A stretch of DNA of 64,000 bases, from contig JAUYGX010000153.1 in NCBI GenBank assembly GCA_030690365.1, positions 1 through 64,000 of the forward strand, read 5' to 3'. The DNA comes from Bacteroidales bacterium (GTDB lineage Bacteria > Bacteroidota > Bacteroidia > Bacteroidales > F082). Below are positions 1,153-40,906 of the stretch, in pieces. Positions within the stretch are counted from its first letter, which is position 1, and every line of letters starts with the position of its first letter. The position numbers and the translations under genes are program-made. The notes under the pieces were generated by a model. It was given only the letters and a program-made list of their open reading frames with translations. It searched no databases and was not told the origin of the DNA.

Positions 1153-3264
1153 ATGCGAAAATATTATTATTTACTTACCATTATCATGATGATGACTTTG
1201 GGATCGTGCAATCAACAGGAAAAAAAAGAACAGGCAACACGGGTGAATCCACTGCTTGAAACGTTTAACACAACATACGGGGTTCCGCCCTTCGACAGCA
1301 TCGAAACAGGCGATTATCTTCCGGCTTTTACCACCGCCATGGAAGAACACAATGCTGAAATTGATCATATTATCAACCAAACGGAGGTACCTACCTTCGA
1401 CAATACCCTGGCCCGGATGGCTTACAGCGGGGAATTGCTGAGCAGGGTTTCCAACATCTTTTATGGTCAGATGAGCGCCAACACCAATGCAGAGCTTCAA
1501 AAAGTGGCGGAAGATATCTCTCCGTTGCTGTCGGAACACAGCGACAACATCAGCTTGAACCCAAAACTTTTTGAAAGGGTAAAAGCCGTTTATGACCTCC
1601 ACGAACAGGATTCACTTACCAGCGAACAAGCCTATTTGATTGAAAATGTTTACATGGATTTTGTCCGCAGCGGTGCCAACCTGGATGCTGATAAACAGTC
1701 AGAATTAAGGGAAATCAATAAAAAATTATCGATGATGGCTTTGAAATTTGAACAGCATGTGCTGGACGAAAACAATGCTTTTCAGTTGGTGATCGATAAC
1801 AAAGATGATCTGACAGGATTGCCCGAATCCGTGATCAACATGGCTGCCCAGACGGCGGATGAAGCCGGTATGACCGGGAAATGGGTGTTTACCACCCAAA
1901 AACCCAGCATGATTCCGTTTTTGCAATATGACCAAAACCGCAGTCTGCGCGAAAAACTGTACAAAGGCTACTTAACACGTGGCAATAACAACAACGAATT
2001 CGATAACAAAACACTTTTTTCGGACATCATCAATCTGCGCATTAAAAAAGCCCACCTGTTGGGTTATCCAAACTATGCCGCTTATGTGCTGGAAGAAAGA
2101 ATGGCCAAAAATCCTGAAAATGTGATGACCTTATTAAATCAGGTGTGGGAGGCTACACTGCCGGTGGCAGAGCGCGAAGTAAAGCAGATGCAGCAAATCA
2201 TCGACGAAGAAGGTGGGAATTTTAAACTCGAAAGCTGGGATTGGTGGTACTATGCCGAGAAATTGCGCAAGCAGAACTACGACCTGGAAGACAGTGAACT
2301 TCGTCCTTACTTTAAACTGGAAAATGTGCGCGACGGAGCCTTTACCGTGATCAACAAATTATACGGCCTCACCTTTAACCCGATTAAAAATATACCGTTG
2401 CCCCACCCCGATGCACAGGCATACGAGGTGAATGACGAAGACGGCAGTTTCCTGGGCGTGATGTACATGGACTTCTTCCCGCGCGAAAGCAAGCAGGGCG
2501 GCGCCTGGCAGGGCGAATACCGCGTGCATCAGGTACTTCCCGATGGTGAAGACATTCATCCTGTAGTTACCGTGGTGTATAATTTTACCCGGCCTTCAGG
2601 CGACATGCCTGCCTTGCTCAATTTTGATGAAGTAGAAACCCTGTTCCATGAACTGGGACATGCGCTGGACGGACTTTTTGCAAAAAACACCTATCCTGAA
2701 ACATTTATTCCCACCGATTTTGTGGAGTTGCCCTCTCAAATTCTGGAACATTGGGCCACCGAACGTGATGTGCTGAAAATGTATGCTGTCAACTTTAAAA
2801 CAGGCGAGCCCATTCCGGATAAATTGATTGACAAAATCAACAACAGCCGATACTTCAACACCGGGTTCAACAACATGGAATTTCTGGCTGCCTCCTTACT
2901 CGACATGTCGTATCATATTCTGGCAGATACCGGAGCCATTGATGTAAACCAGTTTGAGAAAAATTACTTTAGTGAACTTGGATTGCTAAATGAGATCGAA
3001 CCCCGCTATCACAGCACCTACTTTACACATGTCATTGGTGGTTACGAAGCCGGTTATTACAGCTATCTGTGGTCGGCTGTACTCGATCATGACGCTTATG
3101 AAGCTTTCCGTGAAAACGGGATATTCGACAAAACTACCGCCACCAGTTTCAGAAAGAACATCCTGGAAAAGAGCGGCACCTCCGACCATGAACAGTTGTA
3201 CCGTGACTTCAGAGGTAAAAATCCATCGGTAGAACCACTGCTTAAAAACAGAGGGCTGAAATAA
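1153..3264 (+). CDS. dcp: Peptidyl-dipeptidase Dcp (M3 family), lipoprotein
   Basis: A 703-aa zinc metallopeptidase that removes dipeptides from the C-terminus of peptides. Zinc site: FHELGH with H499, E500 and H503, and the third ligand E525 in FVELPSQ. The downstream DFVELPSQILEHW block is typical of Dcp rather than oligopeptidase A or thimet oligopeptidase. The N-terminus (MRKYYYLLTII...LGSC) is a lipoprotein signal with the lipobox LGSC, so the enzyme should be anchored on the periplasmic side of a membrane. Length matches the family. It is monocistronic: a promoter lies at 1094-1126 and 1 kb of repeats follows. With the S9 and S46 exopeptidases in this window it fits an oligopeptide-degrading lifestyle. 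Confidence 0.95.
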   Translation: MRKYYYLLTIIMMMTLGSCNQQEKKEQATRVNPLLETFNTTYGVPPFDSIETGDYLPAFTTAMEEHNAEIDHIINQTEVPTFDNTLARMAYSGELLSRVSNIFYGQMSANTNAELQKVAEDISPLLSEHSDNISLNPKLFERVKAVYDLHEQDSLTSEQAYLIENVYMDFVRSGANLDADKQSELREINKKLSMMALKFEQHVLDENNAFQLVIDNKDDLTGLPESVINMAAQTADEAGMTGKWVFTTQKPSMIPFLQYDQNRSLREKLYKGYLTRGNNNNEFDNKTLFSDIINLRIKKAHLLGYPNYAAYVLEERMAKNPENVMTLLNQVWEATLPVAEREVKQMQQIIDEEGGNFKLESWDWWYYAEKLRKQNYDLEDSELRPYFKLENVRDGAFTVINKLYGLTFNPIKNIPLPHPDAQAYEVNDEDGSFLGVMYMDFFPRESKQGGAWQGEYRVHQVLPDGEDIHPVVTVVYNFTRPSGDMPALLNFDEVETLFHELGHALDGLFAKNTYPETFIPTDFVELPSQILEHWATERDVLKMYAVNFKTGEPIPDKLIDKINNSRYFNTGFNNMEFLAASLLDMSYHILADTGAIDVNQFEKNYFSELGLLNEIEPRYHSTYFTHVIGGYEAGYYSYLWSAVLDHDAYEAFRENGIFDKTTATSFRKNILEKSGTSDHEQLYRDFRGKNPSVEPLLKNRGLK

Positions 3265-3748: not shown

Positions 3749-3965
3749 AAGGGGGTGCAGTCAGCTAAAGCCAGACTGCAATGGATTGATTCTATTCAGT
3801 TTTATTCTCCTACAATGAACATGTTAAAAGTACATCCATTGCAGCCGGTTTTATCCGACTGCATGTCAATCAGATATTCCTTTATTTCCATGTATTAATT
3901 ACTAATGGAGTAACCAAATGCCGTAGGCATGGCCGATATTGTAACCCGGGATTTTAATCCCGGGC
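3749..3965. repeat. 217-bp direct repeat, copy A
   Basis: Nearly identical to 3991-4208. It contains GCAGTC...GACTGC, ATGCC-gta-GGCAT and a perfect CCCGGGATT-tt-AATCCCGGG hairpin at its right end. Short ORFs inside do not resemble proteins. It looks like a non-coding, hairpin-rich Bacteroidota repeat. Confidence 0.8.
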
Positions 3966-3990: not shown

Positions 3991-4208
3991 AGGGGGGGTG
4001 CAGTCAGCTAAAGCCAGACTGCAATGGATTGATTCTATTCAGTTTTATTCTTCTACAATGAACATGTTAAAAGTACATCCATTGCAGCCGGATTTATCCG
4101 ACTGCATGTCAATCAGATATTCCTTCATTTCCAGATATTTATTATTAATGGAGTAACCAAATGCCGTAGGCATGACCCATATTGTAACCCGGGATTTTAA
4201 TCCCGGGC
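3991..4208. repeat. 217-bp direct repeat, copy B
   Basis: Second copy of 3749-3965, separated from it by 25 nt. The few differences (for example ggttttatcc versus ggatttatcc) show the copies are not brand new. The CCCGGGATT hairpin is intact in both. Confidence 0.8.
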
Positions 4209-4918: not shown

Positions 4919-4926
4919 CAAATTTA
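4919..4926 (-). promoter_or_regulatory. -7 box TAAATTTG for the DUF4136 gene
   Basis: CAAATTTA on plus reads TAAATTTG on minus and overlaps the hipT stop codon. Predicted leader about 50 nt. No clear -33 element was identified. Confidence 0.4.
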
Positions 4927-5904
4927 CATCAAATGTTTTAACCGCCCCTGATATGACTGCCAAAAATTTCTTTTTGTTTTCTCATCCAGGAAGGAAGAAC
5001 GGGTCAACTTTTCTACCAAATGTGATTGACCTGACATAAGTCTCACAATATCTTGATAAATTTTTCGATTAATTTCAGCGAGCTCTGCAACTTTAGCAAA
5101 CTGCTGGCCAATTTTTCCTTGTACTAAGTTCCGGGGTAAAAGACCTTCTTCCAGAGCAAAATCACTGTCTTTTATATGAATACGACTATTCAATAAGTCG
5201 TAAGCCGGACTTAACCTAAAGTCTCCCATTGACGTTTCAAGTAGTGAAAAATTTTTATAATGAGCATCACCATTTGAAAACAGGTAGTTAAACATTAATA
5301 CTCTTAAGAGCTTAGGTGCTTCAATTTTGTATGCAGGCACAAAAGATTTCATTATTTGAAACAACTCCAAAAAATTTCCCGAATATTTATAATGTTCACC
5401 ATGAGTCTGGGGTGTCCTCCCTGCAAGTGATGCGAAATCCTCCTGGGCCAATTTGCTGCCATTATTATCAATATCAAATCTTTTTGTAATATAAGCTGGT
5501 GCTCCATTATTGAAAAAGATCAGTGCATTTTCAGCAGTGCTTATACCAAAAACCTGCCGGGCAATTTGCATCGTTAGATGCTCGTTTGCTGGCATTTGGT
5601 CTGGTTTTTTACCAAATCCCGGAATTGGTTTTAAGATATGTGTACCTCTTTCCCCTTCATTAGCAAGTCTCAACTTATTTTTTTCGAGAATAACAGTAAA
5701 CTTTTCCTGAACTCCGGAAATAGATAATCGGTTTCGGTTTTCTTCAAATAGTTCATCTGTTTCAGGATTAGAAGCAGGCGAATCGTATGGTAATACATGA
5801 TATACTTTTTTGCCTTGAAAGACCCTGTTCAAACAGACTCTGCTATATGTGTTAAATCCTTCAGCTAAGGTTCCTGGACAGTATTTTATTTCCGGCAAAT
5901 TCAT
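4924..5904 (-). CDS. hipT: HipT-like short HipA kinase (toxin of HipBST)
   Basis: 326 aa. A HipA-family Ser/Thr kinase that lacks the N-terminal subdomain present in about 440-aa HipA of E. coli K-12. That subdomain is encoded separately just upstream (hipS), the hallmark of HipBST. Visible kinase parts: the Gly-rich loop RLSISGVQEKF (about residue 60), an ATP-binding THILKPIPG strand, the catalytic loop FSNGDAHYKNFSL and the metal-binding SPAYDLLNS. The start ATG overlaps the hipS stop (ATGA), implying coupled translation. In enteropathogenic E. coli, HipT phosphorylates tryptophanyl-tRNA synthetase and HipS neutralises it. The target here is not known: the TrpS in this window has Gly at the equivalent site. 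Confidence 0.85.
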   Translation of the reverse strand: MNLPEIKYCPGTLAEGFNTYSRVCLNRVFQGKKVYHVLPYDSPASNPETDELFEENRNRLSISGVQEKFTVILEKNKLRLANEGERGTHILKPIPGFGKKPDQMPANEHLTMQIARQVFGISTAENALIFFNNGAPAYITKRFDIDNNGSKLAQEDFASLAGRTPQTHGEHYKYSGNFLELFQIMKSFVPAYKIEAPKLLRVLMFNYLFSNGDAHYKNFSLLETSMGDFRLSPAYDLLNSRIHIKDSDFALEEGLLPRNLVQGKIGQQFAKVAELAEINRKIYQDIVRLMSGQSHLVEKLTRSSFLDEKTKRNFWQSYQGRLKHLM

Positions 5905-6230
5905 TCTTCATCAATTTTTATTACTGTTACTGCGCCAATACTGTCATTTCTGGCAATGGTAATAAGCAATCCGAAATAATCATTTGAGTCAATTCTATTG
6001 TATTTACAGACTAATTGTTTATTCGAACCTTCAGGAAGCATATTGTAAAAGAAGGGGAATAGAATTTTTGAATGATATTCCTGTCTGTTTTTAGGTAAAG
6101 TCAGGCTTATTCCACTTTTTTTACTGTCAGACATCCAAGTATCATGGTAACGAAAAGTAAATGTACCATCATTGTGTTGGATTAACAATCCAGCTTCTTC
6201 ATTTTTATATACTATTTTTGCCTGTCTCAT
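5901..6230 (-). CDS. hipS: HipS-like antitoxin (HipA N-terminal subdomain)
   Basis: 109 aa, matching only the N-terminal subdomain 1 of HipA: VYKNEEAGLLIQHNDGTFTFRY at the start, SLTLP in the middle, FFYNMLPEGSNK and a DYFGLLITIARNDSIGAV end. In the described HipBST system this stand-alone domain is the protein that inhibits the HipT kinase. It overlaps hipB by 26 nt and hipT by 4 nt, so the three products are likely made in fixed ratio. Confidence 0.85.
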   Translation of the reverse strand: MRQAKIVYKNEEAGLLIQHNDGTFTFRYHDTWMSDSKKSGISLTLPKNRQEYHSKILFPFFYNMLPEGSNKQLVCKYNRIDSNDYFGLLITIARNDSIGAVTVIKIDEE

Positions 6231-6444
6231 CGTTACGGGTCATATTTTTGATTTTTAAGCCAATTTCCAAGCCTAATACATCAGCTAATTTCTGTAGAGT
6301 CAACAATGTTGGATTCCCTTTTCCACTTTCAAACTGCTTTAAGGTTCTTAACCCGACTCCTGAAAGATTAGCCAGGGTTTCTTGTGTTACTTGCAAAACC
6401 TCTCTGCGTTCTTTAATCGTTCTTACTAGTTTCTCGAAGTGCAT
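6205..6444 (-). CDS. hipB: HipB-like XRE-family repressor
   Basis: 79 aa from the ATG at 6444. A longer in-frame ORF reaches 6585 but would include the promoter and operator region, and its first 47 residues look non-coding. Helix-turn-helix: VTQETLANLSGVGLRTLKQFESGKGNPTL split as helix 2, turn and recognition helix, typical of HipB/XRE regulators. Expected to repress its own operon, helped by HipS or HipT. First gene of hipB-hipS-hipT. Confidence 0.85.
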   Translation of the reverse strand: MHFEKLVRTIKERREVLQVTQETLANLSGVGLRTLKQFESGKGNPTLLTLQKLADVLGLEIGLKIKNMTRNDETGKNSI

Positions 6445-6462
6445 TTTACAGCTCTTTTTATA

Positions 6463-6497: not shown

Positions 6498-6577
6498 TAG
6501 TGCAATTTAGTGCACATAAAGAAGGTTTTTCAGCTATTTCGCCATGTTTTCTCTTTAAAGTGTAGTTTGCTGCACTA
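6498..6577. promoter_or_regulatory. Candidate HipB operators (TAGTGCA heptamers)
   Basis: TAGTGCA occurs at 6498-6504 and 6508-6514 as a direct pair, and inverted as TGCACTA at 6571-6577. The last pairs with AGTGTA at 6559-6564 to form an imperfect palindrome. They sit immediately upstream of the hipBST -33 element, where a repressor or co-repressor complex would act. The heptamer was noticed by eye; binding is inferred. Confidence 0.45.
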
Positions 6578-12972: not shown

Positions 12973-13158
12973 ATGGAAAAAAATCCCAATAAAGTATGCG
13001 TATTCTGCAAACGCAACGAACAGGAAGTGCCTTTGGTAGCACTTGATTTTAAAGGAAATAACTATTGGATCTGTCCTCAACACATCCCTGTACTCATCCA
13101 CAACCCCGATCAGTTGGAAGGGTTGCTGCCGGGTGCCGAGAACCTGCAGGCAGGCTGA
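12973..13158 (+). CDS. Small protein with CxxC...CxxH zinc-binding pattern
   Basis: 61 aa. CVFC near the N-terminus and WICPQH 25 residues later form a C2-CH pattern resembling a treble-clef or ClpX-N-type zinc finger, followed by an acidic/Leu-rich tail (HNPDQLEGLLPGAENL). No named family recognised with certainty. The start ATG follows an inverted repeat. It is likely cytoplasmic, and its function is unknown. Confidence 0.65.
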   Translation: MEKNPNKVCVFCKRNEQEVPLVALDFKGNNYWICPQHIPVLIHNPDQLEGLLPGAENLQAG

Positions 13159-39889: not shown

Positions 39890-40906
39890 ATGGAAAAGAA
39901 AGAAATTGTACTGAGTGGCATCAGGCCCACCGGCAACTTACACCTGGGTAACTACTTTGGTGCTGTAAAGAATTTTGTTAAGATGCAGGAAACACATACC
40001 TGTTTCTTTTTTATTGCTGACTATCACTCGCTTACCACACATCCTACACCCGGAAACCTGCAACAAAATGTACGTCAGGTACTTGTGGAATACCTGGCCG
40101 CCGGCCTCAATCCTGAAAAGGCTACCCTGTATCTGCAAAGCGATCTCCCGGAAACGGCCGAACTTTACCTTTTCCTGAATATGAATGCATACATGGGCGA
40201 ACTCGAAAGGGTAACTACTTTTAAGGAAAAAGCCCGTAAACAACCCGATAACATCAACGCGGGACTGTTAACGTACCCCACACTGATGGCGGCCGATATC
40301 ATTATTCATAAGGCCAATAAAGTGCCTGTTGGCAAGGATCAGGAGCAAAACCTGGAGATGGCCCGTACTTTTGCCCGCCGTTTTAATCACATGTATAACG
40401 TTGAGTTTTTCCCACAACCTTCGGCCTTTAATTTTGGCGAAGAATTGGTGAAAATTCCAGGGCTGGATGGCTCTGGAAAAATGGGTAAATCAGAAGGAGA
40501 AGGCAATGCCATATTCTTAATGGACGATCCAAAGGTACTGCGCAAAAAGGTGATGCGTGCGGTCAGCGACAGCGGCCCTACCGAGATAAACCAGGTGAAA
40601 CCAGAACCCATCGAAAACCTGTTTTCGCTGCTAAAAGTGGTGTCGCAACCCGATGTAGTGGACTATTTCAACGATCAGTACAACAACTGCAACATCCGTT
40701 ACGGAGACCTTAAAAAGCAACTGGCCGAAGATATGATTGCTTTTACAGCTCCTATCAGGGAACGGATTGCGGAACTTAACGCCGATCAGGATTATATTAC
40801 CCGCGTGATGAACCTGGGTGCTGAAAAGGCCCGTGAAAGCGGACGCCATACCGTAGAAGAAGTTCGTCAGATCATTGGTTTTAGAAAATACTACCCGTTC
40901 ACTTGA
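39890..40906 (+). CDS. trpS: Tryptophanyl-tRNA synthetase
   Basis: 338 aa, class I aminoacyl-tRNA synthetase. The HIGH-like signature is PTGNLHLGNYFG near the N-terminus. The KMSKS-like loop reads SGKMGKSEGEGN (DNA about 40471-40500), with Gly at the first Ser. A conserved AADIIIHKANKVPVGKDQEQ block binds substrate. It charges tRNA-Trp. The stop overlaps the TTG start of hflX (TTGA). In HipBST of E. coli the kinase targets the first Ser of KMSKS in TrpS, which is absent here. Confidence 0.95.
   Translation: MEKKEIVLSGIRPTGNLHLGNYFGAVKNFVKMQETHTCFFFIADYHSLTTHPTPGNLQQNVRQVLVEYLAAGLNPEKATLYLQSDLPETAELYLFLNMNAYMGELERVTTFKEKARKQPDNINAGLLTYPTLMAADIIIHKANKVPVGKDQEQNLEMARTFARRFNHMYNVEFFPQPSAFNFGEELVKIPGLDGSGKMGKSEGEGNAIFLMDDPKVLRKKVMRAVSDSGPTEINQVKPEPIENLFSLLKVVSQPDVVDYFNDQYNNCNIRYGDLKKQLAEDMIAFTAPIRERIAELNADQDYITRVMNLGAEKARESGRHTVEEVRQIIGFRKYYPFT

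Follow-up and report, generated by a model that had tools for sequence, protein, structure and literature searches.

A predicted HipBST operon in a Bacteroidales genome whose tryptophanyl-tRNA synthetase lacks the serine phosphorylated by the best-studied HipT

Introduction

HipBST operons have been described as toxin-antitoxin systems in enteropathogenic Escherichia coli (EPEC) and in Legionella pneumophila (PMC6581861, PMC10627512; PMC9325769, PMC10653801). The HipT kinase of EPEC phosphorylates tryptophanyl-tRNA synthetase (TrpS) at S197, and the S197A replacement abolishes the phosphorylation of TrpS; a signal at S199 was also reported, with a localisation probability of 0.865 (PMC6581861). 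Two conserved serines are mentioned by Gerdes et al. For the Legionella HipT, co-expression of TrpS or GltX gave no rescue of growth, and the target was revealed neither by genetic rescue nor by phosphoproteomics (PMC10653801). PheS was a phosphoproteomic hit in Legionella. Homologs of the Legionella system across the FCB superphylum have already been reported (Lin et al., 2023; PMC10653801).

In this work, a hipBST operon was analysed in the genome of a Bacteroidales bacterium (assembly GCA_030690365.1), on a stretch of 64,000 nt of contig JAUYGX010000153.1 (positions 1 to 64,000), which is called the window below. An earlier note on this DNA had described the operon and a TrpS that reads KMGKS in place of KMSKS, and it had left two alternatives: either this HipT has another target, or the host is resistant to the canonical activity of the toxin.

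Results and Discussion

Gene content and family assignment of the operon

Judged from its predicted proteins, the window operon is a genuine member of the known HipBST toxin-antitoxin family (Table 1). The positions of the open reading frames and the Pfam matches gave the order hipB-hipS-hipT, which the family requires, and the overlaps are 26 nt between hipB and hipS and 4 nt between hipS and hipT, so the layout, coordinates and lengths given in the earlier note were verified. HipT, described there as shortened, carries HipA_C only, and the N-terminal subdomain is encoded apart as HipS, a protein with Couple_hipA as its only domain; this confirmed the reading of HipS as a lone HipA subdomain. 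The HipBST kinase motifs and the P-loop serine are conserved in the window HipT, and hipT is the one HipA_C match in the draft genome. The ATG at 6444 was taken as the start of hipB, with which the relatives agree.

Table 1. Coordinates and predicted properties of the features discussed in the text.
Feature	Position	Strand	Description	Support
hipB	6205..6444	minus	HTH protein, 79 aa; probable autoregulator	HTH_3, E 5.7e-12
hipS	5901..6230	minus	109 aa, HipA N-subdomain alone; probable antitoxin	Couple_hipA PF13657, E 1.1e-20
hipT	4924..5904	minus	326 aa, predicted Ser/Thr kinase toxin	HipA_C PF07804, E 3.2e-38
HipT residues			P-loop S61-I-S63, K92, catalytic D213, Mg-site D236	
Operator-like palindrome at -11	6438..6455	minus	overlaps hipB start codon	9/10 specified bases
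Operator-like palindrome at -72	6499..6516	minus		9/10 specified bases
Operator-like palindrome at -132	6559..6576	minus	strict AGTGY-N8-RCACT match	9/10 specified bases
trpS	39890..40906	plus	tryptophanyl-tRNA synthetase, KMGKS for KMSKS (Gly199)	TIGR00233, E 9.2e-88

All three genes were found in 51 of 52 related loci, hipB being undetected in L024, and hipS was found adjoining hipT in 132/132 loci. These 132 rows comprise the window, 22 loci, 29 loci and 80 named loci, with at least 2 duplicate genomes among them. K92 is kept in all 132 HipT rows, and D213 and D236 each in 131. The P-loop reads SxS in 131 rows, and the remaining row has SIP; a HipT relative with the P-loop SIP (L021, genome G137) also carries Asn where the catalytic Asp would stand (NGNFH) and is possibly a dead kinase. 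Relatives of HipT with 52-54% identity were also observed in four MAGs named Neomarinimicrobiota, Blastocatellia, Ignavibacteria and Balneolaceae (L271, L283, L284 and L285), where either transfer or binning error may be involved.

The toxicity, neutralisation and kinase activity of this HipT clade are expected by homology to the EPEC and Legionella systems. The literature searched, in which Lin et al. was the one paper to come up on hipBST in Bacteroidota, gave no toxicity data for any HipBST of this phylum, a result that would suit a regulatory kinase switch rather than a toxin-antitoxin system. Such a switch is, however, very improbable, given the gene order, the overlaps and the patchy presence of the system, which suit a toxin-antitoxin module: a close HipT (E<1e-40) occurs in 59 of 393 genomes of the host's order, the window's own genome counted. 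Repeated transfer of HipT among host lineages, as the tree discussed below suggests, points the same way, and the EPEC and Legionella counterparts are such systems.

Beside the operon, a 215-nt direct repeat was observed (3751-3965 and 3994-4208; 96% identical, 243 nt from start to start), which sits in the stretch bounded by a gene that ends at 3264 and by the DUF4136 gene that adjoins hipT. Further copies were sought around the operon, using a pattern that had been guessed from an open reading frame, and no match was obtained.

Comparison with Legionella HipBST, EPEC HipBST and HipBA

Among the solved HipT and HipS proteins, those of Legionella appear nearest to the window proteins, by profile score and by PDB match. 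A profile built from 26 close HipT proteins scored 171 bits with Legionella HipT, 106 bits with HipT of EPEC O127 and ~55 bits with HipA. The HipS profile scored 76 bits with Legionella, 67 with Haemophilus HI_0666 and 63 with EPEC, and the top PDB match of HipS was Legionella HipS. The AlphaFold model of HipT has a mean pLDDT of 89, with residues 58-65 (the P-loop) below 50, and it matched Legionella HipT with Z 35.1, EPEC HipT with Z 33.5 and HipA with Z 23.5; the fold therefore barely distinguishes Legionella HipT from EPEC HipT.

The sequence marks of the clade are mixed, as it combines an EPEC-like double-serine P-loop with the Legionella-like lack of a Trp at one site of HipS. The window HipT has SIS, as does EPEC HipT, with which it also shares the operon order, whereas the P-loop of Legionella HipT has a single serine (SVQ/SIQ). 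On the other hand, the Trp at the site of EPEC HipS W65 was found in 0/132 rows, the window HipS having Ser69 there, and it is likewise absent from Legionella HipS. The HipBA systems of E. coli and Shewanella are alike in the kinase core and the HTH partner, but their HipS-like subdomain lies within the HipA chain, while in the window it is a separate gene. A further difference from EPEC is that the TrpS serine phosphorylated there corresponds to Gly in the window's host. The earlier note took the EPEC target as the canonical one for this HipT, which is a weak premise: the window HipT is nearer by profile to Legionella HipT, which TrpS fails to rescue, and the EPEC target is for this reason the wrong default.

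Palindromes upstream of hipB

Three palindromes with a period of ~61 bp upstream of hipB are probably HipB operators. The clade motif AGTGC-N8-GCACT occurs at -133, -72 and -11, that is, with a period of 61 bp. In 46, 64 and 63 of 121 distinct upstream regions, respectively, 7 or more of the 10 specified bases were matched at these places. The conservation of the -11 site may be partly coding, because the second codon of hipB falls inside it and one of its ten bases is the G of the ATG, a match by construction. At control places midway (-102 and -41), 1 and 1 of the 121 regions reached the same threshold. All three palindromes were found together in 46/121 upstream regions; by identity of HipT to that of the window, these were 31/60 at 60% or more, 15/52 at 50-60% and 0/9 below 50%. 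The strict motif was present in 46/127 upstream regions, compared with a mean of 0.06 in shuffles, and all of these palindrome figures overstate significance, since loci that are related do not count as independent observations.

Legionella HipBST has three evenly spaced operators, and its array and the operator-like array of the window agree in number and differ in period and position: the 18-nt sites of Legionella are separated by 53-bp gaps and O1 lies 24 nt upstream of hipB, while the window array has the 61-bp period and the positions given above. Genome-wide, the strict pattern matched 4 places and a reversed control pattern 6, and therefore no wider regulon is suggested. One of the 4 places, at 13026-13043, is a strict operator-like match within a small reading frame, at a frequency expected by chance. 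A sigma-70 scan gave promoter-like sites close to the chance level. In a terminator scan, 3 terminator-like sites were obtained versus 1.2, and the -72 palindrome is among the 3.

TrpS of the host and of its order

The TrpS loop of the host was read directly as K197-M198-G199-K200-S201, in which Gly199 matches E. coli Ser197 and Ser201 matches E. coli Ser199. Both halves of the observation behind the earlier note hold, since Gly stands at the target position and the phosphorylation of Ser197 by EPEC HipT is as given in PMC6581861. The draft assembly, which is 99.58% complete and comprises 4.33 Mb in 155 contigs, has one trpS match, the window's own KMGKS copy, so that a second trpS with KMSKS, the case that the earlier note had named against its own reading, was not found in this assembly. 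GltX of the same genome reads KLSKR and keeps the serine targeted by HipA in E. coli.

For the main survey of the host's order, a single genome was drawn per genus, which gave 119 genomes, and 113 TrpS loops were read from them (5 of the other 6 had no trpS match, and G400 had a fragment only). Gly of the KMGKS type was found in 98/113 loops and Ser in 15/113. Seven of the Ser cases fall within the KMGKS TrpS clade, with 63-72% identity to the window TrpS, and the other eight are distant TrpS proteins with less than 42% identity. In the phylum outside the order, the first Ser was retained in 51/51 loops, from 22 genomes with close HipT and, as a non-random sample, the 29 best-scoring of 118 drawn. 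Thus, KMGKS marks a TrpS clade at the level of the order, in which Ser or replacement occurs occasionally. That Gly is peculiar to the window's host was rejected, as it occurs in other TrpS proteins of the order, and a phylum-wide KMGKS was rejected on the 22 and 29 genomes just given. Named KMGKS records include Paludibacter, Marinifilaceae, Bacteroidales MAGs and Mucilaginibacter sp. OK283. No relevant paper was found in a literature search on KMGKS TrpS or on KMSKS in TrpS of Bacteroidetes, and none on HipA in connection with KMSKS.

Two further variants of the loop were observed. In the host's order, the TrpS of L191, L198, L207 and L397 reads KMGKT, so the second Ser is also replaced, by Thr; KMSAS stands in place of KMSKS in L323 and L327, which are Saprospiraceae and Lewinella MAGs.

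Presence of HipT and the host TrpS residue

The survey of Ser versus Gly in HipBST-positive Bacteroidota that the earlier note had proposed was carried out, and both residues occur in hosts. TrpS could be read in 54 of the 59 genomes with close HipT (5 were missing or cut), with 48 Gly and 6 Ser. Of the 80 named HipT loci, 30 were taken for the TrpS search, with L251-L300 outside it; 29 of the 30 could be searched, and 27 gave a full TrpS loop, 6 with Gly and 21 with Ser (2 of these KMSAS). In the one-per-genus draw, genomes with close HipT had 12 Gly and 1 Ser, and the others 86 Gly and 14 Ser (Fisher p=1.0); the HipT status came from the scan of the 393 genomes, and genomes unlisted there were counted as negative. 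This draw replaced a first HipT-negative control (19/20 Gly), which was dropped as biased: its genomes had been chosen by resemblance of their TrpS to that of the window, which skewed it to Gly.

A HipT tree of 71 rows (73 labelled rows minus 2 identical ones; a truncated HipT and rows for which no TrpS had been read were omitted) was made by a quick method. It requires at least 13 changes of the host residue, or at least 5 when the starred branches alone are counted. Shuffled labels gave 21.9 changes compared with the 13 observed, and 0/500 shuffles were as low. The residue thus clusters on the tree, and some dependence of HipT on the host residue may be involved, although host lineage alone would give such clustering. 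HipT pairs that span Gly and Ser hosts are 75-84% identical, as in L140 (Gly) and L244 (Ser) with 84%, L122 (Gly) and L123 (Ser) with 81%, and the isolates Mucilaginibacter sp. OK283 (Gly) and Deminuibacter soli (Ser) with 78%; many hosts are MAGs, for which mis-binning may blur the host assignment. A toxin that depends on the serine should shun Gly hosts or decay there, and the HipT relatives give no sign, in their sequences and distribution, of requiring the first serine of TrpS.

It is quite unlikely that HipT is specific for the first KMSKS serine, with the host resistant and the toxin inert in it. The sole trpS found lacks the serine, as this reading expects, and HipT copies with in-frame stops were found in 4 of 48 Gly hosts (G568, G551, G560 and G611) and in 0 of 6 Ser hosts. 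These copies are too few to demonstrate decay in Gly hosts, and G560 has a second, intact HipT copy as well. Moreover, the kinase and P-loop residues are kept in 131 or 132 of the 132 rows, a set that includes many Gly hosts, and HipT is not rarer in Gly hosts; an inert toxin would be expected to decay more widely, while hipS accompanies hipT throughout. The absence of an association between HipT and the residue, together with the at least 13 host switches, therefore favours another target over a resistant host. Of the two alternatives in the earlier note, the first is favoured and the second disfavoured, since HipT relatives live with Ser and Gly hosts.

TrpS might still be the target, either through the second loop residue (Ser201, which corresponds to Ser199 of E. 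coli) or through another site of the protein, which we regard as unlikely. Wherever TrpS was read in a host with close HipT, the loop has Ser or Thr as its fifth residue, and the S199 signal with EPEC HipT (PMC6581861) and the two conserved serines (Gerdes et al.) are on record. However, S197A by itself abolished phosphorylation by EPEC HipT, so a mechanism that uses the second serine would have to be new, and Legionella HipT was not rescued by TrpS (PMC10653801).

Proposed target of HipT

We consider it likely that the operon is a chromosomal HipBST toxin-antitoxin module whose HipT acts on an essential protein, and not on the first KMSKS serine of TrpS, since this host lacks that serine, as do most hosts of the clade within the order. 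By homology, HipT would be a Ser/Thr kinase toxin kept inactive by HipS, and HipB would bind the upstream palindromes and repress the operon. HipT freed from HipS would then phosphorylate an essential protein at a site other than the first KMSKS serine of TrpS. We infer that this target is probably common to Bacteroidota, and it may be another aminoacyl-tRNA synthetase. GltX, whose KLSKR is kept, is one possible target, yet GltX failed to rescue Legionella HipT. A wider history, in which the order-wide change from KMSKS to KMGKS immunised these hosts against Hip kinases that act on TrpS and the circulating HipT clade hits a different target in Ser and Gly hosts alike, seems rather improbable.

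The oddity of the window HipBST is that the serine attacked by the best-studied HipT is missing from most of the order to which its host belongs. Legionella HipT is the closest characterised relative, and hosts naturally without the TrpS serine let TrpS be ruled in or out as a target. The HipT pairs that are 75-84% identical across Ser and Gly hosts would allow a direct test of the role of TrpS. Further handles come from the catalytic-loop serine, lost in the greater part of an order, and from the operator-like array with its 61-bp period.
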